Positions 2,945 through 29,553 of a stretch of 33,485 bases of DNA are shown here, in pieces. The notes below the pieces were generated by a model that saw only the letters and a list, made by a program, of their open reading frames with translations, did no database searches and had not been told where the DNA came from. Positions within the stretch are counted from its first letter, which is position 1; each line of letters begins with the position of its first letter. The position numbers were made by a program, and so were the translations under genes. Source of the DNA: Bacteroidales bacterium (GTDB lineage Bacteria; Bacteroidota; Bacteroidia; Bacteroidales; F082); contig JAFWRA010000209.1 of NCBI GenBank assembly GCA_017508895.1, positions 1-33,485 on the forward strand, in the 5' to 3' direction.

Positions 2945-5900
2945 TTATTGCACGATGATTTTTTTGATGAACATCTTGTCATCGGTTTTGATATGTAGAA
3001 TATATACACCTTTGGGCAACACGCCACATTCGATTTGTGTATTCCCAGTGCTATGACCTACCATAACATTCTGACCAACATCGTTATAGAGAATATATTG
3101 GAACGGATGTTCAAAGCTAACGTTTAGCCAATTACGTGTCGGATTTGGGAAAATTCTCAGCTCGTTCTCGATGCTGTCAATACCAAGAATGGTAATCTCC
3201 ACAGTCGCAAATGCTGGGATGGATTGCTGACCTTGGTTGTTGAAAGCCGTGACGCTATAGGTGTGAGTACCGAGATCGAGGAATTCCGTTAAGGTCGTTT
3301 CGTGCTGTGTAGCAATAGGTATCCCATTGCGCCTGATATGGTAATTGTCGTTCAAGTTGTTTGCTTGCCAATTGATAGTAACTTCATTTTCAAAGATTTG
3401 AGTCTCTAATTCTACGCTTGGCAAGAACAAGAAAGTGTTAGCCGATGGGAACTGAATATCATCTATCCAGCAGCAGTCTTCACCATACGAGCCACTGCCG
3501 TTTTTCGAATAAATCCATTTAAACTTGTGTGTCCCAGGGTCTACAGGGAAGGTCTCGCGGCTCCAACCAATCTCTCCCGACCATTCGCCCATGACGGTGT
3601 TATCGATGTAAAAGGTGAGTTTGTCCTTGTTGGCTTCAGTGCAAACTTTCTTGTAGAAACTGATTTCACTTGATTCCTCAACATCGAAACTGACTTGTAA
3701 AGTAGTGAGATTGGCATCGCTAATGGCTCCTGAACGGGCACAATAGATTCCCGTATTGGCAGTGCTGTTGTCGATAAACCAATAGGAACCTCCAAGCATT
3801 TGCCAGGCAAAAGCGCTGAAGTCTCCGGTTTCGAAGGTTTCTTTGAATGGGCCGATATTTAGGAATTCCGTGCTGCTGAGCGTGTATGGGGTAGCGTCCA
3901 TGTGGTAAAACACTTCAAAATTCGTACCTGTTGGGGTGTTCGCCGAAGTGCTGAATGAGATGGCCGCGGTAGCAGTGCTTCCAGCAGGTATTATCCCGAG
4001 GTTATATTGAATTGGATTGAAAATCAAATTGTCGGAGCTGCTAAACAACTGTACCGTGGCTTCTCGCGCGTCTGACGAACCTATATTCCTAAATCCTATG
4101 AGCAAAGTTCCGTTTTCGCCCGGATTGACTGTGTTTGCCGGCCTAAACTCCGACAAAACGAAAGCGGGTGCATGAAGCGTTATGCGGAAATGGCTGGTCC
4201 AAGTATTGCCGCCTTCAGTGCAAGTAAGTGTGAATTCAGCTTGATACCCATCTGTAATCATATCGTTTACAGATATTTCAAATCCGTTGGCTATGGTATA
4301 TTCTTCCATAGCAGCAAGGCTGCCGATGGTGTACGATCCGTTTGTGATTTCCACAAAAGGAGAGTCGACGCTAAGGGTGACTTGTACATTTGAGGCAGTT
4401 TCGTTTCCAATATTCTTGATGTTCAAATCCATGTTAAGTGTTTCGCCATAATCTGCCTGACCGTTTTCGTCATTGATGGAGAAACCATTATAGGTGAGGT
4501 AGGCGCCATTTGCTGGGATGATGGCGATGTCGCGAACTTCTGTGACCTTATTGAAACTTGTTATTATGAGTTGTGCCGTTCCGGTATGTGTGAGGTTAGG
4601 GAAAGTGAGCGTGCCCTCTCCGTCGAGGATAGGGGCGTTGGCGATGACTTCTCCGTCAACCGAAAGCGTGGCAAAAGCATAGTTGGCATCTGCCATAACA
4701 TGTAGTTCTGTCTGTCCAAGGAAGATGGCTTCAGGCTGGCACATGACATTCATTTCGGTCGGGTTGTCGGTGCGTAGAAGCAAACTTGGGTCTCCAAAAA
4801 GAATCCAAGTGTTGTGGGTCTTGCCTTGATCAGAAGGATGAAGGTCGAGGATCTTCATGTTGCCGTTGAGAGAAGCCCCGCCAAGGGTGTGGTGGAATTG
4901 GTCTGCGTTGCGCCATTCGCAAAGGATGTCGACCATCTCGTCCTGTCCCGTCATGGGCGGCTGCCAGGGCTGGGAAGTCCATGAAAACATGCCGCCGATG
5001 GCTCCAGTGGGTGCGCCGGAAGTGTTGTTGGTGGCTCGCATCCATGCCTCGGCGAAGCAGTTTTCGTCGAATTTCCCATTGAGGCAGGCCGTAGACCAAA
5101 TGACAGGCCATTTGTAATCGTTGACCAAGGTGTTCACGTGGCTGTTGTTGAAAGAGCCTACGTACCAACTTATTGTGGAACCATGGTTGCAGTAGTTGCA
5201 GATGCTGACACCGTTATTGAAGTTCTCACTTAACATGGCGGAATTGGTGCCCGCGCCCACACCTTGATAATGCTGCGAAACTTCTGCATAGGTATAATGT
5301 AGCAAAGTGTCGCGGATATATTCAATATGTTGATAGTCAGATTCTCCTCCGTTATGACCGCTGCCAGCCCCTTCGGTGGCGCCTATGCCCATGCCTTTGT
5401 TGAGCCAATTCGCATCGGAGGGAATGTCGCGTTCATAATATATCACTTTGGCGACTTGGTTCTCCACGTCAGCAACACTTTCAGCTGAGAATCTTCCAAC
5501 CAGGACTTCAGGGTAATAGTCGTTGCCTTCGAGTTGGCCAAACCAAATGTCCGACGCTCCTCCATTCATTGACTTTGGCGTAAGGTCATCATAGTCGCCT
5601 ACAAGGAGTACATAACATAGATTTTTCTCTGGATTGTTGTAATGGCTGAGAATGAACGATTTGATTTGGTTGGTGTTGTTGCCTCCGATGTCTGAAAGAC
5701 TGACGATAGTGGTAGGCTGACCCGATTTGTTTTTCCAGTCCACAAAGGGCTGCATGGCATCGAGATAGGCAGGCGGGCAGATGACTAACATTTCGCCTTC
5801 GTCAGGGATGAAGTTGTATTTTGTCGCCCGTTCTTGGTAGTTGATAAAACGATGATGATACATCTCAAGCGTTTCGGGCGACATTCTAATCTTGTTTGAT

Positions 5901-6523
5901 TTGTGGCTTGGTTTTGGGTTGTCTCCACCTTTGTCGCTCATCTTTTTCATTGTCAAAGTCAGCTGGGTGTAGACACGAAGGGTTTTCGTCACGGGATTGT
6001 ATGCAAAAGGATAGACCAAAATGTTTTGTCCGCGGAAATCGCGGAGGATATAAGGCTTGTCTAGTTGTGCCTGAAAACCTGGAAAGAATTGTTTTTTTGA
6101 ATAGGTCTCTCCATATCGGTAAGGCACGGTCTCAGGATCAATCTCTCGGCTGAGATTGCCTTTGGATGGTGCGATTTCGATGTCTTCAAAATCCTGATAT
6201 TGGGCCTTGTCGACTTCCACCTTCATCTTGGCCAGGTCGTCGATGAGCATGGGGATGGCAAACAGCGGTAGGTCGGGCGAGCCTTCTTCAAGCAGAGAGG
6301 CCATCTTGGGCACTGTGATGGTGTACTGAAGTCCAAAAGGCGTATTGACCTCGTCTTTATAAAAACCTTCTAATGTGAAGCTGACCGAAATCTCTTCTTG
6401 GGAATTGGAGAGCAGTTTGACGTTAGGCGATGTTGGGTTTTTGCTTCCACAATTCACCCATTCCTGCGAAAACAGGTGGCAGGAAAACAAACAGATAATG
6501 AGGAATAACAGTCCTTTTTTCAT
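2945..6523 (-). CDS. Secreted gingipain-like cysteine peptidase (family C25) with type IX secretion signal
   Basis: The 1192-residue protein begins with a Sec signal peptide (MKKGLLFLIICLFSCHLFSQ), followed by a gingipain-type propeptide to about residue 240 and a C25 catalytic domain at about 244-590. The catalytic pair is His447 (in YCNHGST) and Cys480 (in STACLNG). They are 33 residues apart, as in RgpB, and are followed by the family motif CFAEAWMRA. Several beta-rich modules follow, including a jelly-roll segment (FKETFETGDFSAFAW onward) and a fibronectin-III-like one. The last 75 residues are a type A T9SS sorting domain (IFPNPTRNWLNV to KKIIVQ). It therefore probably leaves the cell by type IX secretion and is anchored or released there. 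The frame is open to 6634, but the ATG at 6523 starts the signal peptide and follows a promoter element. Confidence 0.93.
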   Translation of the reverse strand: MKKGLLFLIICLFSCHLFSQEWVNCGSKNPTSPNVKLLSNSQEEISVSFTLEGFYKDEVNTPFGLQYTITVPKMASLLEEGSPDLPLFAIPMLIDDLAKMKVEVDKAQYQDFEDIEIAPSKGNLSREIDPETVPYRYGETYSKKQFFPGFQAQLDKPYILRDFRGQNILVYPFAYNPVTKTLRVYTQLTLTMKKMSDKGGDNPKPSHKSNKIRMSPETLEMYHHRFINYQERATKYNFIPDEGEMLVICPPAYLDAMQPFVDWKNKSGQPTTIVSLSDIGGNNTNQIKSFILSHYNNPEKNLCYVLLVGDYDDLTPKSMNGGASDIWFGQLEGNDYYPEVLVGRFSAESVADVENQVAKVIYYERDIPSDANWLNKGMGIGATEGAGSGHNGGESDYQHIEYIRDTLLHYTYAEVSQHYQGVGAGTNSAMLSENFNNGVSICNYCNHGSTISWYVGSFNNSHVNTLVNDYKWPVIWSTACLNGKFDENCFAEAWMRATNNTSGAPTGAIGGMFSWTSQPWQPPMTGQDEMVDILCEWRNADQFHHTLGGASLNGNMKILDLHPSDQGKTHNTWILFGDPSLLLRTDNPTEMNVMCQPEAIFLGQTELHVMADANYAFATLSVDGEVIANAPILDGEGTLTFPNLTHTGTAQLIITSFNKVTEVRDIAIIPANGAYLTYNGFSINDENGQADYGETLNMDLNIKNIGNETASNVQVTLSVDSPFVEITNGSYTIGSLAAMEEYTIANGFEISVNDMITDGYQAEFTLTCTEGGNTWTSHFRITLHAPAFVLSEFRPANTVNPGENGTLLIGFRNIGSSDAREATVQLFSSSDNLIFNPIQYNLGIIPAGSTATAAISFSTSANTPTGTNFEVFYHMDATPYTLSSTEFLNIGPFKETFETGDFSAFAWQMLGGSYWFIDNSTANTGIYCARSGAISDANLTTLQVSFDVEESSEISFYKKVCTEANKDKLTFYIDNTVMGEWSGEIGWSRETFPVDPGTHKFKWIYSKNGSGSYGEDCCWIDDIQFPSANTFLFLPSVELETQIFENEVTINWQANNLNDNYHIRRNGIPIATQHETTLTEFLDLGTHTYSVTAFNNQGQQSIPAFATVEITILGIDSIENELRIFPNPTRNWLNVSFEHPFQYILYNDVGQNVMVGHSTGNTQIECGVLPKGVYILHIKTDDKMFIKKIIVQ

Positions 6524-6542
6524 TTCTTGTGTGTATTTTGCG

Positions 6543-6550
6543 CAAAAATA
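6543..6550 (-). promoter_or_regulatory. -7 promoter element for the C25 peptidase unit
   Basis: On the minus strand this reads TATTTTTG, an exact TAnnTTTG match, ending 19 bases before the peptidase ATG. The position supports the start at 6523 and rules out the longer frame beginning at 6634. Confidence 0.6.
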
Positions 6551-6611
6551 CGCAAATTCTTTGAAATGAGATAATACGGGCTGTATTATTGGTAGTGTGT
6601 AGTTATATTTG

Positions 6612-6650
6612 CGAAAAACAAACGGACTCCCCAAATAGGAAGCCCGTTTG
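6612..6650 (-). terminator. Terminator of the dcw operon, downstream of ftsZ
   Basis: On the minus strand CAAACGG(G) pairs with CCGTTTG across a partly paired inner part (CTTCC with GGAG), followed at once by TTTTTCGC. It lies about 40 bases after the ftsZ stop and upstream of the peptidase promoter. Confidence 0.65.
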
Positions 6651-9833: not shown

Positions 9834-10598
9834 TTATCGTTTTGTACAGACTATTTGATTTTTATAATTCAGATTGATGCTTTTTAGGGTTTGTGTTTCA
9901 GGATTGTCGATCCTTTGTTTCATGAAGATTTCCAAGCGTTTCAGTTTGTCGGCGGCATAGAGTGTGTCGCCAACAATCACTCTTGTGTCGAGGCCGCGAA
10001 CAGTGAGCTCGAATTGGTTACGATTGTTGCAATACAACTGTCCCACGCAGTTTTTGATGAAGTTATTCTTCTCTATAGTCTCAACCCAATGCAGGGCGTT
10101 GATTATGTTTCTGTCGCTGTTGAGCGTGTCGCAAAGTTGATAGGAAACCGTGTCTTTCTTCAAGTCGAAATTGCCGCTGGCGATCAGGACGTATGGCGTG
10201 TAGATGCGGCTCGATGGAATGACGACACCTTCGCGGGTCACATAGACCGAATGCCCCTCCTTGTCGAACACCCTGAAGGTGGGCTCGTATTCATTAAAGC
10301 TGACGTTAAGCGTACCGTCAAGGTCGACGTATGAGGCATTGTTTTCAATCCAGGGGTTGTCGTCCAGATGATTCTGCACGGCAATCATGTTGACGGTACC
10401 GATGTTTTTATTGTTGCAAATCTGGCTGAGCTCTTCGCGAAGCTGACTCTTTTTGACGAAGCCGGTGTCGGTCTCTGTTATCAGTCGGATGGACTTCAAG
10501 GGCTTGTTCAGGTAGTCTTCTCTCGCAAAGATGAACAAGACAACCAATGCGGCGGCTGTGACAACCCATAACACTATGCTAAGTATCTTCTTTACCAT
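9834..10598 (-). CDS. ftsQ: Cell division protein FtsQ (DivIB family)
   Basis: FtsQ is a bitopic divisome protein linking early and late division proteins. The 254-residue product has a short cytoplasmic start, one membrane segment (about 4-25, ILSIVLWVVTAAALVVLFIF) and a periplasmic part. That part has a degenerate POTRA-like region (LREELSQICNNKNIGTVN, then NPWIENNASYVDLDGTLNV) and the conserved beta-domain stretch GHSVYVTREGVVIPSS. Sequence conservation in this family is low. The assignment rests on topology, those motifs and the position between murC and ftsA. It overlaps murC by seven bases. Confidence 0.9.
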   Translation of the reverse strand: MVKKILSIVLWVVTAAALVVLFIFAREDYLNKPLKSIRLITETDTGFVKKSQLREELSQICNNKNIGTVNMIAVQNHLDDNPWIENNASYVDLDGTLNVSFNEYEPTFRVFDKEGHSVYVTREGVVIPSSRIYTPYVLIASGNFDLKKDTVSYQLCDTLNSDRNIINALHWVETIEKNNFIKNCVGQLYCNNRNQFELTVRGLDTRVIVGDTLYAADKLKRLEIFMKQRIDNPETQTLKSINLNYKNQIVCTKR

Positions 10599-11932
10599 GT
10601 CTTTATCAGTTTTTCCAAGGGTTCAACAAAGCGGTCGATGTCGCCGGCACCCATTGTGATGAGTAATTCGGGTTTCTCTCTGTCAATCAGGTCGATGAGT
10701 TCCGACTTTTGGCAATTTTTCTTGTTACTTGCGTTCACCTTGTTTAATAGGGCTTCGGAGGTGATGCCTTCGATGGGTAACTCGCGGGCAGGATAGATGT
10801 CGAGAAGGATGAGCTCGTCAGCCATAGCTAAAACAGAAGCAAATTCGTCCATGAAATCACGGGTGCGGCTGAACAGATGGGGCTGGAACACAAGTGTGAT
10901 GCGTTTCTCGGGGAAGGAATCTCTCACTGCTGTCAGGCAAGAACGAATTTCCTCGGGATGATGGGCATAATCGTCTATGTAGCAGTGCTTTTCATTGTTT
11001 ACCCTGATGTCGAAGCGACGCTTCACACCTTTGAATGAAGTCAAGGCTTCGGCGATGTCGGTAGAGGGAATGCCAATGTTTCGGGCGGCGATGAAAGCTG
11101 CGGTGGCGTTCAGCACATTGTGACGTCCTGCCATGGGCAATTGGATAGCGGTAGTCGTGTCTTCTGCATTGATGACAAAGTCTGTGACGCCTTTTTCTGA
11201 GCGGATGATATGGGCCCGGTAGTCATTTCTGTCACTAAAGCCGAAGCGGATGCCTCGGTCGGTATGGATATCAAGGCCTTCTTTGACGATGACCTTTTCC
11301 TCGGTGAGTTGGGCAAAATCGTTGAAACTTTGCACCAAATGTTGTTTGTCTCCATAGATGTCCAAATGGTCGGCATCGATAGAGTTGATGATGCTGATGT
11401 TGGGATGGAGTTTCAGGAAGGAGCGGTCAAACTCGTCGGCCTCCACGACCATGATATTGTCTTTACCTTTGCCTAACAGCAGGTTACTGTTGAAATTGTT
11501 GGCAATGCCCCCAATGAAGGCGGTAGTGTCCTTGCCACAGATGTGTAGGATGTGGGCAACCATAGCCGTGGTGGTGGTTTTGCCATGTGTGCCTGCCACG
11601 GCTATGGTGAAGTGATGCTCCGAGATTTGCCCTAAAGCCTCGGAGCGTTTCATAATCTTTATATTACGTTGTTTAAGGGCTTCAAATTCCTTGAGGTCTT
11701 TAGGCACGGCGGGCGTGTAGACGACAAACTCAATGAGGGCAGGCAATAGGTTGGGGTTGTCTTCATAATGGATTGCCATGCCCTCATCTTCCAGTTGTTT
11801 GGTGAGCGGGGAAGGGGTACGGTCGTAGCCAGCCACGGTGTAACCTTGGCTTTGGTAGTATCTGGCTAAGGCGCTCATGCCTATGCCCCCTATGCCTAAC
11901 ATGTAGATTATATGTCCTTCTCCGTTGTTCAT
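10592..11932 (-). CDS. murC: UDP-N-acetylmuramate-L-alanine ligase
   Basis: MurC adds the first amino acid, L-alanine, to UDP-MurNAc in cytoplasmic peptidoglycan precursor synthesis. The 446-residue protein has the MurC-type N-terminal dinucleotide fold IYMLGIGGIGMSALARYY, the P-loop AGTHGKTTTTAM (GTHGKTT at 114-120), the central EADEFDRSF motif, and the C-terminal domain with DDYAHHPEEI and FQPHLFSRTRDF. All three Mur ligase domains are present, in contrast to the murD position in this same cluster. It follows murG after a 106-base gap containing a palindromic repeat and overlaps ftsQ by seven bases. Confidence 0.97.
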   Translation of the reverse strand: MNNGEGHIIYMLGIGGIGMSALARYYQSQGYTVAGYDRTPSPLTKQLEDEGMAIHYEDNPNLLPALIEFVVYTPAVPKDLKEFEALKQRNIKIMKRSEALGQISEHHFTIAVAGTHGKTTTTAMVAHILHICGKDTTAFIGGIANNFNSNLLLGKGKDNIMVVEADEFDRSFLKLHPNISIINSIDADHLDIYGDKQHLVQSFNDFAQLTEEKVIVKEGLDIHTDRGIRFGFSDRNDYRAHIIRSEKGVTDFVINAEDTTTAIQLPMAGRHNVLNATAAFIAARNIGIPSTDIAEALTSFKGVKRRFDIRVNNEKHCYIDDYAHHPEEIRSCLTAVRDSFPEKRITLVFQPHLFSRTRDFMDEFASVLAMADELILLDIYPARELPIEGITSEALLNKVNASNKKNCQKSELIDLIDREKPELLITMGAGDIDRFVEPLEKLIKTW

Positions 11933-12038: not shown

Positions 12039-13136
12039 TCAACTTATTGCTTCTATTATCACATCTACAATGTCATCGGCTGCATTCGGGCGAGCGAATT
12101 TGCCAATGTTGGCGCTTAATCTGTCTTGTAAGTCCTTGTCGGCAGCAAGTTTGAACAAGGCAGGGATAAGCTCTTTTTCCGTGTCGGCGTTACGTACCAT
12201 GATGGCTGCGTCAGCATCGACAAGTTGCTGGGCGTTTTTGGTCTGATGGTCTTCAGCGGCTGTCGGGAGCGGCACGAAGATGACAGGTTTTTGTACCAGT
12301 GCCAGTTCCGAAATCGACATGGCACCAGCGCGTGAGATGACCACGTCGGCCAAGCCGTAAGCCAAATCCATGCGGTCGATGAAGACGGTGGACTTCACTT
12401 GGCTTTCCAAGCCTAAGGCTTTCACTTCCTCTTGAGCTTGGGTGATGTAGGTCTTGCCCGTCTGCCAGATAAGCTGCAAGTCGTTGTCCTTGAAGGCTGC
12501 AAGTTGGGCACTGATGCCTTTGTTGATACCTAAGGCGCCTTGGCTGCCACCTACGAGCAGCGCGACAGGTTTCGCCGGGTCGAGATTGAAAAACGCAGCG
12601 GCTTCTTCGCGGGTGCCACGAAGGGTGATGTTGGCTCTCAGTGGATTGCCAGTGAAGTGTATCTTTTTGGCTGGGAACCATTGGTCGAGATGGTCATAGG
12701 CAACACAGATGGCTTTGGCCTTCTTGCCTACGTTGCGGTTGGTTTTGCCTGGATAGGAATTCTGCTCCTGAATGACAGTAGGGATACGGAGAAAGTTGGC
12801 ACCCATTAAAGTGGGGCCACTGGCAAATCCACCGACACCGATGACCACATCGGGCTTGAAGCGCTTCAAGATGGCGATGGCATGGTTGAAGCTGCTTGTA
12901 AGCTTCAAGGGCAACAAGAGTGACTTTATGTCCTTGGTCATGCCGCTGATCCACAAGCCTTCGATGGGATAACCCGCCTTGGGCACCCTTTCCATCTCCA
13001 TGCGGCCTTTGGCACCGATAAAGAGGATGTCAGCCTTGGGGAATCTCCTTTTCAAGGCATCTGCGATGGCGATGGCGGGAAAGATGTGACCGCCCGTTCC
13101 GCCTCCACTAATCACGACTTTAAGGTTCTCTTTCAT
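12039..13136 (-). CDS. murG: UDP-N-acetylglucosamine--undecaprenyl-PP-MurNAc-pentapeptide GlcNAc transferase
   Basis: MurG converts lipid I to lipid II at the inner face of the cytoplasmic membrane. The 365-residue GT-B glycosyltransferase has the glycine-rich loop SGGGTGGHIFPA near residue 10, the second glycine motif GVGGFASGPTL, the LLVGGSQGALGIN loop, and the UDP-GlcNAc-binding region SRAGAMSISELALVQKPVIFVPLP with the following DHQTKNA. It overlaps ftsW by 17 bases, which keeps the lipid II-making and SEDS genes coupled. After its stop the operon is interrupted by a repeat-filled gap. Confidence 0.97.
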   Translation of the reverse strand: MKENLKVVISGGGTGGHIFPAIAIADALKRRFPKADILFIGAKGRMEMERVPKAGYPIEGLWISGMTKDIKSLLLPLKLTSSFNHAIAILKRFKPDVVIGVGGFASGPTLMGANFLRIPTVIQEQNSYPGKTNRNVGKKAKAICVAYDHLDQWFPAKKIHFTGNPLRANITLRGTREEAAAFFNLDPAKPVALLVGGSQGALGINKGISAQLAAFKDNDLQLIWQTGKTYITQAQEEVKALGLESQVKSTVFIDRMDLAYGLADVVISRAGAMSISELALVQKPVIFVPLPTAAEDHQTKNAQQLVDADAAIMVRNADTEKELIPALFKLAADKDLQDRLSANIGKFARPNAADDIVDVIIEAIS

Positions 13137-14397
13137 CTTCTGTTATTTCTGTAAGTGCTTGTAATTCTTGTTCTTTATTCATATTCTCGTCTTCCATGTA
13201 TCTCGTGACACTCAGAATCATGCCCAAGATGAGTCCAGTGGCCATCAGCGAGGTGCCACCCATGCTGACGAAAGGCAACGGCTGTCCTGTGACGGGCAAC
13301 AACCCGATAGACACGCCCATGTTGACCATGGCTTGCAGGATGACGAGGAAACCCAAGCCGAAGGCCATCAGTGAACCGAAAGTGAGTGGCCTCTTGATGA
13401 CGATGCGCAACACTCTGGTGAAGAGAATGAGATAGAGCAGTAACACAACGACAGCGCCAATGAGCCCATACTCTTCTATGATGATGGCAAAGATGAAGTC
13501 GGAGTAAGGGTGGGGCAGGAAATTGCGTTGCTCACTCTTGCCAGGCCCTTTTCCGAAAATTGAGCTTGAAGCTACAGCAATATCGGCATAGGTACGCTGC
13601 ATGTGTTTGTCGTCGAATGGATCCACTTTCTCTTTGTCTTCGCCCATCGATTTGAGTCGGTTCGACCAGGTCTGAATGCGGTTTTGCTTTTCCTTGTAAG
13701 TGTCTGTTTTCTCTCCAATCACCATGGTGTCTTGTTGTGCGGCACGACGGTGCTTGTTTTCAATATTGGTCTTGATGGCATCATAACCTAAATAAGCGCT
13801 CATACCGGCGATGCAAAGCCCGACCAATGCGAGCAGATGCAAAAATTTCACGCGACCAATGAAGAGCAACACCATGCAAACGGCGACTAAGATAACGGCA
13901 GTGGAAAGGTTTTCGGAAAAAATCAAGGCTGCGGTTACCAAAATGGGAAGTGCCAACCTGAGAAGGAAATCCTTGAAATTATAGACCGAGCCTTCCATCA
14001 TAATCAGTTGGCGGGCCAGGTAGGTGATGAGTATGATTTTGGCCATCTCGCTGGGCTGGAACGAGAATCCACCGACATTGATGGAACGGCTGGCATCGTT
14101 GATGTTGCGGCCAAACACCAAGGTGTAGAGCAACAAAGCCAGGCAAGGTATCATGAGCAACAAGGCGATCTTCGCATAACGTTTGTAGTTGATTCTTGAT
14201 GCTAGAATCATCATGGCGAAGCCGAAAATCAACATGGCGAGGTGCTTCATCAGCACTTTGCCCGTGTCACCTTCATATTTCGAGACCGCCAATGCGCTGG
14301 TCGCACTGTACACGACAATCAGCGAGATGATGCCTAAAATCAGGGAAACAATCCAAATGACTTTGTCGCCTCTCAATATTTTATTGATGATATTCAT
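13120..14397 (-). CDS. ftsW: Septal peptidoglycan polymerase FtsW (SEDS family)
   Basis: FtsW is the polytopic glycosyltransferase that polymerises lipid II at the septum with its partner FtsI. The 425-residue protein has about ten hydrophobic segments. Family signatures include GGFSFQPSEMAKI, FGKGPGKSEQRNFLPHPYSDFIFAIIIEEYGL and the terminal LPFVSMGGTSLM. A hydrophilic stretch (NIENKHRRAAQQ to DDKHMQRTYAD) forms the long extracytoplasmic loop. It overlaps the murD-like fragment upstream by 17 bases and murG downstream by 17 bases. Confidence 0.96.
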   Translation of the reverse strand: MNIINKILRGDKVIWIVSLILGIISLIVVYSATSALAVSKYEGDTGKVLMKHLAMLIFGFAMMILASRINYKRYAKIALLLMIPCLALLLYTLVFGRNINDASRSINVGGFSFQPSEMAKIILITYLARQLIMMEGSVYNFKDFLLRLALPILVTAALIFSENLSTAVILVAVCMVLLFIGRVKFLHLLALVGLCIAGMSAYLGYDAIKTNIENKHRRAAQQDTMVIGEKTDTYKEKQNRIQTWSNRLKSMGEDKEKVDPFDDKHMQRTYADIAVASSSIFGKGPGKSEQRNFLPHPYSDFIFAIIIEEYGLIGAVVVLLLYLILFTRVLRIVIKRPLTFGSLMAFGLGFLVILQAMVNMGVSIGLLPVTGQPLPFVSMGGTSLMATGLILGMILSVTRYMEDENMNKEQELQALTEITEDEREP

Positions 14398-14947
14398 TTT
14401 CCAGTTTCTTTACGGTTTCCGTGAAAAGGTTGCCACGCTCAACGAAGGTCTCGTCTTCCTTGTCCGACTTGCAGGCGGGAGAAAACAACACAACATCGTC
14501 TTGCTTGGCCAGAAACGAAGCGGTGTCGATGGCCTCTTCGATATCAGAGACCTCGTAGATGTCCTTGATGTCTTTTTGGAAGGATTTCTTCAGATTGGCG
14601 TTGTACTTTCCGATGCAAATCAACGCTTTGACTTTCTTCTTGGCTACTTGCTTCAGGTCCTTGAAGTCGGTGTCGCGATCGTTGCCACCCGCAATCCAAA
14701 TAACTGGCTTGACGATGTTTTCGAAAGTGAACCAGGTGGCATTCACGTTCTCAGCCCTCGAGTCGTCGTAGTACATCACTCCATCGATGGTGGCGATGTA
14801 GTCTTGGCGATGCTCGATGGTGTTGAGGTCGCTGAGACTCTGTTTGATGTTCTCTTTTCTAATTTGCAAGATTTTGGACGATATTCCTGCTACCATGGTG
14901 TTGTGTATCATATGTCGCATATTGGTTAATTCTTCAAAATAAAACAT
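14381..14947 (-). CDS. MurD C-terminal-domain-only protein (truncated UDP-MurNAc-L-Ala:D-Glu ligase)
   Basis: The 188-residue ORF aligns by eye only with the last third of MurD. Recognisable parts are HNTMVAGISSKILQIRKE (end of central domain), EHRQDYIATIDGVMYYDD, VIWIAGGNDRDTDF, VKALICIGKYN and VLFSPAC with FVERGNLF. The N-terminal UDP-binding and central GKT ATP-binding domains are absent, so it cannot be a ligase by itself. The usual NDSKATNVN reads DDSRAENVN (61-69), the usual GGxDKG-type lysine is Arg91, and SPACASFD reads SPACKSDK (156-163). These are contact residues for D-Glu or ATP in MurD (comparison from memory). An in-frame stop lies 16 codons upstream, so no longer product is possible. 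It occupies the normal murD slot and overlaps ftsW by 17 bases. It may be a remnant or a repurposed domain. Confidence 0.85.
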   Translation of the reverse strand: MFYFEELTNMRHMIHNTMVAGISSKILQIRKENIKQSLSDLNTIEHRQDYIATIDGVMYYDDSRAENVNATWFTFENIVKPVIWIAGGNDRDTDFKDLKQVAKKKVKALICIGKYNANLKKSFQKDIKDIYEVSDIEEAIDTASFLAKQDDVVLFSPACKSDKEDETFVERGNLFTETVKKLENEYHQ

Positions 14948-15036
14948 GATGCTTTGGTTATCGGTTGTTCGATTGAAAGTTTTGATTCTTGAATTTTAAA
15001 TTTTGAATCTTTGAATTTTAAATATTGAGTTGAGAT
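14948..15036. other. AT-rich spacer between mraY and the murD fragment
   Basis: This 89-base gap holds no ORF. It contains a 13-base direct repeat TTGAATTTTAAAT (14989-15001 and 15011-15023) with a related TTTTGAATCT between them. Neighbouring genes in the cluster mostly overlap, so the gap marks the likely place where the 5' two thirds of murD were lost. No TAnnTTTG promoter element is seen for the downstream genes. Confidence 0.6.
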
Positions 15037-16314
15037 TTATCTGATTTTGAAAGTAATAAGCGTAAATGCAGCCAGCAGGATGGTGATAATCCAGAAACGG
15101 ATGGTGATTTTCACCTCATGATGGACGGTGTTGTAGCCCTCACCATGCCCTTTAAATGTGACAGTTGAGTTGGGCCAAGCTTTCTTGAAATCGCTGTACG
15201 AGGTCCTAAAGTGGTCGTGCAAAGGGCCTTTTTTCCAGATACGGTGTTTCTTTCCTGTCTTGACAAAGTGTTTCACGTCTAAGTCGGAGAGGATTTCGAA
15301 GAGGAACACACCACAGAGCAAAGGGAGGAGCAATTCCTTATGCAGAATAATCGCCGACACGGCAATAATTCCTCCGATGGTCAGGCTGCCCGTGTCACCC
15401 ATGAAGATTTGGGCGGGGTAGGAGTTGAACCACAGGAATCCGATAAGCGAACCAACGAAGGCTGCCAAGAAGATTACAATTTCTTCACAACCTGGGATAT
15501 ACATCAGGTCGAAGTGGCTTGCAGTGACCGCGTTGCTGGAGATGTAGGCCAAAATGACCAATGTGATGCCGATGATGGCCGAGTTGCCCGATGCCATGCC
15601 GTCCATGCCGTCATTGAGGTTGGAGCCGTTTGACACAGCAGCCACAATGAATACGGTGAGCAGCACAAGGAAGACCCACGCCAAATTATACATCCACTTC
15701 GGTCCTGCCCATTTGAATAGGTTGGCATAGTTGAGGTTGTGGTTCTTCAAGAAAGGAATGGTGGTCTGTGTCGATTTCACGTTGGGACTCTTCACGACAA
15801 CTTCCTTGTTGTCTTCGATTTTCAACTTCACAGTCTCGTTGATTTGCACAGCAGGGCTGAAACGAAGCGTGAGTCCTACGATGAGACCCAACAGGATTTG
15901 TCCACCCAATTTTACGATGGGTTTCAAACCGTCTTTCTTGTGCTTGAAGGTCTTGACGTAGTCATCGGCGAAACCAATGACACCGAGCAAAAGCGTGGTG
16001 ACTATCATCAAAATGGTGTAGACGCTATGAAGTTTGCATACCAACAAAACTGGTATCAGAATGGCCGCTATGATGGTGACGCCGCCCATGGTAGGAACGC
16101 CAACTTTCTTGGTGTTGTAGGGGTCAATGGCTTCGTCACGCTGGGTTTCAACAATTTTTCTCCGTTTCAGCATCTTGATGAAGAAGTTGCCGAACCATAC
16201 AGAAACGATAAGCGCCAAGATAATAGCTGCGGCTGCCCTGAAGGTGACATAATTGAACACACCCGCACCCGGGAAGCTGTGTTTGTGCAGATAATTGAAC
16301 AGATAGTATAACAT
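15037..16314 (-). CDS. mraY: Phospho-N-acetylmuramoyl-pentapeptide transferase
   Basis: MraY transfers phospho-MurNAc-pentapeptide to undecaprenyl phosphate, forming lipid I. The 425-residue polytopic protein has the conserved KKVGVPTMGG, the first acidic pair GFADDYVK, the NLNDGMDGMASGN motif, FMGDTGSLTIGG, and the cytoplasmic GPLHDHF loop. It is about 65 residues longer than E. coli MraY because of an inserted stretch around residues 160-220 (NETVKLKIEDNKEVV to NHNLNYANLF), which I associate with Bacteroidota versions. Its ATG shares one base with the murE stop. The next gene should be murD but is only a fragment. Confidence 0.96.
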   Translation of the reverse strand: MLYYLFNYLHKHSFPGAGVFNYVTFRAAAAIILALIVSVWFGNFFIKMLKRRKIVETQRDEAIDPYNTKKVGVPTMGGVTIIAAILIPVLLVCKLHSVYTILMIVTTLLLGVIGFADDYVKTFKHKKDGLKPIVKLGGQILLGLIVGLTLRFSPAVQINETVKLKIEDNKEVVVKSPNVKSTQTTIPFLKNHNLNYANLFKWAGPKWMYNLAWVFLVLLTVFIVAAVSNGSNLNDGMDGMASGNSAIIGITLVILAYISSNAVTASHFDLMYIPGCEEIVIFLAAFVGSLIGFLWFNSYPAQIFMGDTGSLTIGGIIAVSAIILHKELLLPLLCGVFLFEILSDLDVKHFVKTGKKHRIWKKGPLHDHFRTSYSDFKKAWPNSTVTFKGHGEGYNTVHHEVKITIRFWIITILLAAFTLITFKIR

Positions 16315-17771
16315 CAGTTGGCCTCCTTAAAAGCTTCCGACAAGACTTCCTTGTCGTCAAAATGGTTCTTTACTCCGTTGATTTCCTGATAGGTCTCGTG
16401 ACCTTTGCCTGCCAAAAGGATGATGTCGCCTTTCTTGGCTAAGGCTACGGCCGTGCGTATGGCTTCTCCTCGGTTGGTGATGCTTAACACTTTACGCTTG
16501 TCCTCTTCGGCGATGCCCGCTTTCATCTGTCGGATGATTTCGTCAGGGTCTTCGTTGCGAGGGTTGTCGCTGGTGAGGATGACCTTGTCGCTCAGCTTCA
16601 CTGCGACAGCGGCCATTTCAGGTCGTTTGGTGGCATCACGGTTGCCTCCGCATCCCACCACGGTGATTAGTGTTTCCTTGTGGCAGCGCACTTCGTTGAT
16701 GGTGGTGAGCACGTTCTCCAAAGCATCGGGTGTGTGGGCATAATCAACAATGCCGACAATGCCTTTGTCGGAATGTACCATATCGAAACGGCCGTTGGCT
16801 CCATGCAACTTGCTGATTTCAACCAGCAATTCGTCTTTATTGAATCCCAATGATAACGCGGCTCCGTAGATGGCCAACAGGTTACTGGCATTGAAGCCAC
16901 CAACAAGTTGGGTGTAAACTTCGGTACCGTTCACTTTGAGCAACATCCCGTCGAAGTGGCTTTCCATGATGACTCCCTTAAAGTCGGCATCGTGTTTCAG
17001 GGCGTAGCTCAGTTTTTTTGCTTTGGTGTTTTGCAACATGATGGCGCCGTTTTTGTCATCGAGGTTGGTGAGGGCAAAGGCGGTTTGAGGCAGATTGTCG
17101 AAGAATTTCTTTTTGGCATTGCGGTAGTTGACCATCGTTTTGTGGTAGTCGAGATGGTCATGGGTAAGGTTGGTGAAGATACCACCTGTGAAATGCAGTC
17201 CTGCAATACGGTCTTGTGCAACGCTGTGTGAACTCACCTCCATGAAGGCGTATTCACATTTGTTTTCGGCCATTTGTTGCAATAAGGCATTCAGTTCTAT
17301 GGGATCGGGGGTAGTGCGCGTCGAAGGGATGATCTCACGATTCACGATGTTCTCAATCGTGGAGAGCAATCCGCAGTTGTAGCCCGCATCGGTGAAAAGC
17401 CTATAAAGTAAGGTGGCTATAGTGGTCTTGCCGTTGGTGCCGGTCACTCCGACCAAACGCAGCTTCTTGGATGGATTGCCGTAGAAATTGGAAGCAGAGA
17501 CGCCTAGGACGTAGGCAGAGTTGTCAACCTTGACATAGGTGACGTTTTCCACCTTCTTTCGAGGCATCTTTTCGCCTACAATGGCCGTTGCACCTTGTTC
17601 GATGGCTTTGTCGATATAGTCGTGGCCGTCGACTTGCGTGCCTTTCACGGCAAAAAATAGTGTGTTGGGCTTGACCTTCCGCGAATCGAAAGCGATGTCG
17701 AGGATGTCCAAGTCCTTGTCACCTATTATCTCCAAAAGGTTACAGTTGACTAATATGTCTTTGAGTTTCAT
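16314..17771 (-). CDS. murE: UDP-MurNAc-L-Ala-D-Glu:meso-diaminopimelate ligase
   Basis: MurE adds the third stem-peptide residue. The 485-residue protein has the N-terminal FDSRKVKPNTLFFAVKG domain, the P-loop VTGTNGKTTIATL (GTNGKTT at 111-117), the DHLDYH motif, YRNAK with the probable carbamylated Lys220, and the C-terminal SDNPRNEDP. The DNPR motif (402-405) is the diagnostic signature for meso-diaminopimelate rather than L-lysine, so the wall is DAP-type. Its substrate is the product of MurD, which implies that a D-glutamate ligase works somewhere in this genome. It overlaps ftsI by four bases. Confidence 0.97.
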   Translation of the reverse strand: MKLKDILVNCNLLEIIGDKDLDILDIAFDSRKVKPNTLFFAVKGTQVDGHDYIDKAIEQGATAIVGEKMPRKKVENVTYVKVDNSAYVLGVSASNFYGNPSKKLRLVGVTGTNGKTTIATLLYRLFTDAGYNCGLLSTIENIVNREIIPSTRTTPDPIELNALLQQMAENKCEYAFMEVSSHSVAQDRIAGLHFTGGIFTNLTHDHLDYHKTMVNYRNAKKKFFDNLPQTAFALTNLDDKNGAIMLQNTKAKKLSYALKHDADFKGVIMESHFDGMLLKVNGTEVYTQLVGGFNASNLLAIYGAALSLGFNKDELLVEISKLHGANGRFDMVHSDKGIVGIVDYAHTPDALENVLTTINEVRCHKETLITVVGCGGNRDATKRPEMAAVAVKLSDKVILTSDNPRNEDPDEIIRQMKAGIAEEDKRKVLSITNRGEAIRTAVALAKKGDIILLAGKGHETYQEINGVKNHFDDKEVLSEAFKEAN

Positions 17772-28953: not shown

Positions 28954-29553
28954 TTATTCAATTATCTGTCTCGCCCATTCGGGCAGTTGCTCCACATATC
29001 TTTTCACGATGATACCGTTAGAAAGGCGCAGAAGCAAAGAGGCATCTGCACGATCAACGGAATTGTCGTATAAATAAGTTCGGTCGGTTTTGTCGGAAAG
29101 AAACTTGCAATTAGCGATAGACTTCTGGTAACGCGAGATAACCTTTGTTATGGGAACATCATGGCCTCCTTCCATCACTCGCTTTGCAATTCTTGATGCA
29201 TTAATAATAGGTGATTGGGTGCACACGAAAAACAATCTGACAAAGAATCCCGATTCTTTGGCTCTCAAAATGTAATCTACTTTGTCGGTCGCTGATAGGA
29301 CTGTTTCAAAAATCAAACTTTGTTTTTCTTTCAGGCATTGTTCTCTCCAATCTTCGCAATACTTCACAGCCTGCATGATGGCTTCCCTTGAGTTCCAATC
29401 TCCAAAACGCTCTTGAGCAACAATGTCAGGGTTGATATACACCGAGTCCTCCATCCATTCATGATGAAGGATTTTCCCTGTAATTGAAGTCTTTCCGCTG
29501 CCGTTAGGACCAGCAATAACTATCAGAACCGGTTTTCTTTCCTGCAAGGTCAT
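28954..29553 (-). CDS. Zeta-toxin-like P-loop kinase
   Basis: The 199-residue protein has the zeta-toxin/UDP-N-acetylglucosamine-kinase architecture. Walker A is GPNGSGKTS (15-23), followed by YINPDIVAQERFGD (substrate-side NPD), FETVLSATDKVDYI (the zeta 'ETxxS' block at about 83-87), KRVMEGGHDVP with the basic residues of the lid, SRYQKS and a closing YDNS. Zeta toxins phosphorylate UDP-GlcNAc and so block peptidoglycan synthesis, but many family members are housekeeping or unknown kinases. A 60-residue acidic partner overlaps its start by four bases, which suggests a toxin-antitoxin pair. No toxicity can be concluded from sequence. Confidence 0.8.
   Translation of the reverse strand: MTLQERKPVLIVIAGPNGSGKTSITGKILHHEWMEDSVYINPDIVAQERFGDWNSREAIMQAVKYCEDWREQCLKEKQSLIFETVLSATDKVDYILRAKESGFFVRLFFVCTQSPIINASRIAKRVMEGGHDVPITKVISRYQKSIANCKFLSDKTDRTYLYDNSVDRADASLLLRLSNGIIVKRYVEQLPEWARQIIE

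Follow-up and report, generated by a model that had tools for sequence, protein, structure and literature searches.

The division and cell wall (dcw) gene cluster of a Bacteroidales bacterium of the GTDB family F082 (assembly GCA_017508895.1) holds, in the slot where murD belongs, an unbroken open reading frame (ORF) that encodes only the C-terminal domain (CTD) of the D-glutamate ligase MurD. This short ORF lies on contig JAFWRA010000209.1, of which positions 1 to 33,485 were analysed and are called the window throughout. The same truncation recurs across the Bacteroidales, is linked to the presence of the putative epimerase MurL, and leaves a domain that is under purifying selection while the catalytic contacts of MurD are lost. 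The explanation put forward here, to which we give about an even chance, is that a non-catalytic MurD CTD has been kept for a role independent of catalysis, likeliest docking, after the ligase MurD2 together with MurL had made the original ligase dispensable. The short ORF is filed as a novel variant of a known domain, as no description of a CTD-only MurD was found in the titles and abstracts of the literature on truncated MurD, MurL/MurD2, the MurD-FtsW interaction or the Bacteroidetes dcw cluster. Its parts are the following:

14381-14947, reverse strand: short ORF, stand-alone MurD CTD of 188 residues (Pfam, NCBIfam, AlphaFold2, Foldseek, orthologues)
14813-14947, reverse strand: N-terminal 45 residues, the end of the MurD central domain plus linker, with low model confidence and the H-N-x-x-N ATP-contact motif not kept (alignment, AlphaFold2)
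14471-14812, reverse strand: Mur_ligase_C (PF02875), residues 46-159 (Pfam match)
14741-14767, reverse strand: DDSRAENVN, counterpart of MurD NDSKATNVN (E. coli 316-324), with Asp317 kept, Lys319 replaced by Arg and Thr321 by Glu (alignment)
14675-14677, reverse strand: Arg91, counterpart of the D-Glu-binding Lys348 (alignment)
14459-14482, reverse strand: SPACKSDK, counterpart of MurD SPACASLD (E. coli 410-417) (alignment)

An earlier note, made from the letters of the window alone, had read the murD slot as a MurD CTD and nothing more, and profile searches bear this out. The NCBIfam murD model TIGR01087 aligns with the short ORF over model positions 271-440 of 441 alone (134 bits, E 7e-39, under the curated whole-protein cut-off of 212 bits), Mur_ligase_C is its only Mur domain, and neither an N-terminal UDP-binding domain nor a central P-loop domain was found with Pfam and NCBIfam profiles. 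The ORF starts with ATG and is preceded, as the note had it, by an in-frame TAA 16 sense codons 5' of this start. The AlphaFold2 model, built on a 53-row alignment, has a mean pLDDT of 80.6, which is low at residues 1-46, and each of the top 33 Foldseek matches in the PDB is a structure of MurD (E 1e-12 to 1e-8; query-normalised TM 0.60-0.68). Among the best 120 of 709 matching proteins of 0.55-1.75 times its length, the protein name, where given, is "UDP-N-acetylmuramoylalanine--D-glutamate ligase" or "hypothetical protein".

With canonical MurD the short ORF shares the sequence, fold and cluster place of the C-terminal third, but it differs by having no UDP-binding domain, no P-loop domain and changed catalytic contacts. 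The substitutions named in the earlier note (DDSRAENVN, Arg91, SPACKSDK) are present as given there. In the alignment with E. coli MurD, numbered by hand, the changes are K319 to R64, T321 to E66, K348 to R91, A414 to K160, L416 to D162 and D417 to K163, while H301 (H46), R302 (R47), D317 (D62), S415 (S161) and F422 (F168) are unchanged. H267 and N268 align with H12 and M13, and an Asn occupies the N271 column; as a set, the residues through which the C-terminal region of MurD contacts D-Glu and ATP (N268, N271, K319, T321, K348) are not retained. Absent too are the features of the central ATPase (P-loop, E157, H183 and K198, E. coli numbering), of which K198 is the lysine that is carbamylated. 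Judged by its sequence, the short ORF cannot be a ligase on its own, as two domains are absent and catalytic contacts are changed, among them Lys348, for which a D-Glu-binding role in E. coli MurD is given in PMC8788868.

The short gene is conserved in the nearest genus, where 97 of 99 genomes have a CTD match and 95 have the short gene itself. The nearest genome (G001) has 32% of sampled 31-mers in common with the window and carries the ORF at 99% identity. The four remaining genomes (G003, G004, G007, G119) are 62-72% complete, and their FtsW matches, weak at 28-36% identity, are read as RodA-type and hence as uninformative on the short gene. The open frame measures 179-222 codons in 93 of the 95 genomes; in the other two (G015, G068) the excess length comes only from the lack of a stop across mraY, which is read in a different frame, and the usual start lies within. 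Cluster context was examined in fetched loci, a subset of the 95 genomes. Nei-Gojobori estimates were obtained from 26 loci of the genus, 23 of them with all six genes, over 118 pairs chosen by MraY divergence, and gave the short ORF a median dN/dS of 0.21 with a maximum of 0.486 (116 usable pairs). The medians of the other genes are 0.165 for FtsW, 0.17 for MurC, 0.118 for MurG, 0.098 for MurE and 0.078 for MraY, which makes the short ORF the least constrained of the six, and all values are rough as dS is high (median 1.21). Since the neutral expectation is near 1, a dN/dS of about 0.21 argues against a neutral remnant; the short ORF is a retained domain under purifying selection. This agrees with the view in the earlier note that a simple pseudogene is not at hand, and the signs of decay that it had thought of, namely relatives in which the ORF is frameshifted or absent, do not apply, the gene being intact in 95 of the 99 genus genomes.

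Beyond the genus, a survey covered 393 Bacteroidales genomes, evenly drawn and at least 85% complete. A MurL match is present in 127 of them (about a third), in 66 of 204 genera; six from the window's genus and one with a weak partial match (G151) were set aside, and the other 120 were searched with a CTD alignment. Only the CTD was found in 46 and a full MurD in 67, three loci are cut by a contig end (G201, G443, G455), and no dcw-type CTD was found in four genomes (G056, G175, G222, G248), three of which, not G175, have weak FtsW matches only. As a control, the search was run on 80 out of 266 genomes without MurL, yielding 78 full-length genes, one genome without a match (G223) and one with the CTD only (G051); one of the 78, that of G042, is split over two contig ends. 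At family level, the truncation occurs in 19 MurL-positive groups of Bacteroidales and in one MurL-negative group.

Phylogeny points to many separate events. In an FtsW tree (158 rows, 215 columns) the short or full state changes 19 times, with at least 7 changes forced by strongly supported branches, and a CTD tree (162 rows) has 13 changes, at least 4 of them forced. Of the 47 short rows that do not belong to the genus, 7 have their nearest full-length CTD in their own family. G243, for instance, matches full-length G389, a member of its genus, at 82% identity and no short form from another family at more than 64%, and the full form of the own family is likewise closer than foreign short forms for G433 with G376 (82% vs 66%) and G148 with G391 (70% vs 53%). 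For the other 40 rows the nearest full form is from another family, many of these families being without a full form in the set. The earlier note had allowed for missing sequence between mraY and the ORF that would restore murD; the missing MurD part has no convincing match within 1.5 kb upstream in 63 CTD-only loci (best E 0.026). A split gene with its N-terminal part elsewhere was also considered and rejected, there being no N-terminal-only fragment among the TIGR01087 matches listed.

Within the set MurD exists in two clean states, a full catalytic protein or the CTD alone. A family-weighted comparison of 63 CTD-only rows (20 families) with 97 full rows (58 families) shows the loss of H267 (from 100% to less than 7%), N268 (100% to 35%), N271 (98% to 28%) and K348 (100% to 40%) in the short forms, with partial loss of T321 (to 64%) and K319 (to 68%; E. 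coli numbering for these sites). Retained are R302 (Arg 88%, Lys 13%), D317 (100%) and H301 (86%) and, in the numbering of the window ORF, Glu at the Asp49 position (93%), N69 (90%), W72 (97%), W84 (95%), V106 (99%), A139 and V140 (98%), S156 (92%), P157 (90%) and F175 (100%). By these residues, the short form retains its fold together with one lip of the former cleft while its ATP and Glu contacts erode. Full-length MurDs, on the other hand, have the central ATPase features in all 98 sequences of the set. In MurL-positive genomes their decay had been expected, but is contradicted by the intact catalytic residues: the P-loop Lys, E157, H183, K198, K319, T321 and K348 are kept in 67 of 67, the exceptions being D182 as Asn in one and N271 as Asp in two. 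The F422 position is Tyr in 50 of these 67 and in 28 of 31 MurL-negative full MurDs.

The evidence for a replacement pathway comes from relatives of the window rather than from its own genome. The MurL model NF041275 is a Xanthomonadales model, and its matches in 94 of the 99 genus genomes, 93 of them substantial and one (G024) weak and partial, are all below its curated cut-off, as Bacteroidales matches are in general by far; no match was found in G003, G004, G017, G074 and G113. In G001 a single ORF holds a MurL region followed by a full MurD-like ligase. Such a joint open frame for MurL and MurD2, about 885-996 codons long and apparently a fusion of epimerase and ligase, occurs in G001 (L002, L052), G020, G022, G025, G029, G067, G109, G177, G201, G269, G345 and G406; elsewhere the two are encoded by adjacent but separate genes or on different contigs. 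Among 46 MurD2 sequences (26 from CTD-only and 20 from full-MurD genomes), Glu182 is found in 45 and Arg348 and Ile319 in all 46 (E. coli numbering), with K115, E157, H183 and K198 intact in every one. PMC8788868 reports that the choice of L-Glu by the MurD2 of Xanthomonas is determined by Glu197 and Arg358, which correspond to positions 182 and 348 in E. coli, and that a K319 substitution makes E. coli MurD accept L-Glu. Bacteroidales MurD2 would therefore, by its residues, use L-Glu, and both this ligase activity and the epimerase activity of MurL are predicted. No MurD2 position is conserved in the full-MurD genomes yet lost in the CTD-only ones (20 vs 26 sequences), which speaks, within these 46, against a MurD2 altered to compensate for the CTD or to depend on it.

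The glutamate racemase MurI, the D-Glu source covered by the searches, was above its cut-off in none of the 77 MurL-positive genomes tested (46 CTD-only genomes outside the genus, 7 of the genus and 24 of the 67 with full MurD), nor in G024, G051 and G074; sub-threshold matches occur in 14 of these 80. Among 80 MurL-negative genomes it was above the cut-off in 75, with no match in G051, G185, G212 and G220 and a weak one in G173. In the relatives, MurI and MurD thus appear to have been swapped for MurL and MurD2. The earlier note had held that a D-Glu ligase must exist elsewhere; a ligase does lie elsewhere in the relatives, but the substitute would be MurD2, an L-Glu ligase by its residues, acting with the epimerase MurL.

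Two further observations concern D-Glu supply in these genomes. The 67 MurL-positive genomes with full MurD pair MurL-MurD2 with an apparently catalytic MurD, yet MurI was not above the cut-off in any of 24 tested. G051 (locus L275; 98% complete, 10 contigs) has a CTD-only gene between mraY and ftsW, and MurD, MurD2, MurL and MurI were not found in it; no known route to the D-Glu residue is seen, and murC is also absent between murG and ftsQ.

The neighbourhood of the short ORF in the window is that of a dcw cluster:

13120-14397, reverse strand: ftsW (SEDS family), downstream neighbour, overlapping the short ORF by 17 bases (best model TIGR02614, 250 bits, under its cut-off of 337.5)
14948-15036: AT-rich gap of 89 bp from the mraY stop to the short ORF, holding the in-frame TAA (sequence)
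15037-16314, reverse strand: mraY, upstream neighbour (TIGR00445, above cut-off)
16314-17771, reverse strand: murE, full length (Pfam, NCBIfam)
10592-11932, reverse strand: murC, full length (Pfam, NCBIfam)

The intact ORF with its 17-base ftsW overlap and the full-length murC and murE are as the earlier note described them, and MurE and MurC each carry all three Mur domains. Further off, the window encodes a 199-residue P-loop kinase (28954-29553, reverse strand; Zeta_toxin Pfam match, E 4e-13) and a 1229-residue gingipain-type protein (Peptidase_C25) that has a propeptide and a Por secretion tail (2945-6634, reverse strand). A plasmid origin for this DNA was considered, and a "near"-mode search gave no match.

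The proposed course of events would start with MurD2 adding L-Glu and MurL converting it to D-Glu in relatives from which MurI is absent. The ligase activity of the dcw-encoded MurD would thereby have become dispensable, and its first 255-260 or so residues would have been deleted cleanly, many independent times. The CTD would have been retained for a second, catalysis-independent job, which we infer to be docking to partners in the cytoplasmic precursor and division complex (MraY, MurG, FtsW or other Mur ligases). Docking is favoured because the short gene keeps its place between mraY and ftsW, which were identified upstream and downstream, respectively, in 62 of 63 CTD-only loci each, because no whole substrate pocket is retained, and because MurD of Thermotoga maritima is reported to bind MurG and MreB, flexible C-terminal regions being proposed to serve in partner binding (PMC6420597). 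Of the regulator, decoy and partner roles raised in the earlier note, that of a partner fits best.

Several points weigh against this explanation. No partner or phenotype of the CTD is known. Full MurD with an intact active site is kept by 67 of the 120 MurL-positive genomes, and MurI did not turn up in any of the 24 that were tested; therefore, the swap alone does not remove MurD. G175 (locus L337), which is MurL-positive and 91% complete, has ftsW amid unrelated genes and no CTD match, a possible true loss: the CTD may be dispensable in a broken-up cluster, or may sit in the missing part of the genome. The retention of R302 and D317 from the old cleft would be compatible with ligand binding as well, part of the conservation may mirror fold stability only, and the FtsW and CTD trees are both quick ones with long-branch warnings.

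An alternative is that the MurD2-MurL pair has in the CTD a subunit or activator of its own, retained because MurD had come to partner with the pair in an ancestor that possessed both routes. This is rather unlikely, and less likely than docking. It would explain why hardly any CTD-only forms lie outside MurL-positive genomes, but MurD2 has no change specific to CTD-only genomes, the short gene stays next to ftsW and not next to murL, and the CTD is kept in G051 (98% complete), G024 (97%) and G074 (95%), where MurL and MurD2 were not found, assembly gaps being possible. More doubtful still is a ligand sensor, of nucleotide or glutamate type, that regulates the pathway. In its favour, the family-weighted CTD-only sequences all keep equivalents of R302 (as Arg or Lys) and of D317, and 86% keep that of H301, residues that line the ATP site of MurD. 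The P-loop domain is absent, however, the HN..N motif is lost, K348 and T321 are kept in only 40% and 64%, and R302 and D317 may be structural. The sensor of UDP precursors proposed in the earlier note finds no support, as the UDP-binding domain is among the missing parts.

Retention of the stretch for its DNA or RNA, as a promoter or for translational coupling of ftsW, is highly improbable: the short ORF does lie immediately upstream of ftsW and overlaps it in the window, but the dN/dS indicates constraint on the protein, and in several CTD-only loci 62-271 bp separate the short gene from the first ATG of the ftsW frame, a start chosen mechanically. A decaying remnant or an assembly artefact, to which the erosion of catalytic residues would be suited, can practically be dismissed given that the gene is intact in 95 of the 99 genomes of the genus, that named records stem from many separate samples, that dN/dS is low and that 63 loci lack MurD pieces upstream.

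Known systems resemble the short ORF and its setting in part. The MurD2-MurL pathway of the Xanthomonas type (PMC8788868) is matched in the window's relatives by MurL beside or fused to a ligase with E182, R348 and I319 and by the failure to find MurI, but a short CTD is no part of the pathway as described in the accessible text. Mur ligases also occur in a precursor complex scaffolded by MurG (PMC6420597), where, as far as the accessible text goes, they are full-length enzymes and no free-standing CTD is described. PAP11, the MurE-like subunit of the plastid RNA polymerase (PMC9456514), is a Mur ligase relative that serves as a subunit of another complex, yet it is a plant protein of MurE type. 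The model of the short ORF has a weak Foldseek match to 8qma_O (E 1.4e-3), putatively a chain of a PAP11-type structure. To our knowledge, PAP11 has no ligase role in the plastid RNA polymerase.

The short form may also have a counterpart within ordinary MurD. The Met used as its start, before TLEELALQG(K/R)HN, is conserved in 89 of 98 full-length MurDs, and the upstream context of this Met has a mean score of 1.37, better than the -1.38 of the other in-frame Mets. But a conserved Met 17 codons on scores 1.62, and Streptococcus MurD has a Met there too. Either the Met before TLEELALQG(K/R)HN was a start codon lying ready for the short form, or it is already in use as a hidden internal start.

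The broader reading, which we hold to be slightly more probable than its negation, is that Bacteroidales MurD is a two-function protein whose CTD job is kept alone whenever MurD2-MurL replaces the ligase. CTD-only genomes would then amount to separation-of-function mutants made by nature, and an ordinary murD might even yield the short form too, from an internal start at the conserved Met. Roughly one in three of the Bacteroidales genomes surveyed shows an apparent swap of MurI and MurD for MurL and MurD2; for this pathway the accessible text of the review PMC8788868 names gamma- and alphaproteobacteria and actinobacteria and does not name this group, the string "bacteroid" being absent from its main text. 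If the explanation is true, MurD, an antibiotic target usually treated as a soluble enzyme only, has a second role. The repeated loss of all but the CTD would isolate the domain that carries this role, and the idea of Mur ligases as structural parts of a complex would become testable with a protein of 188 residues.
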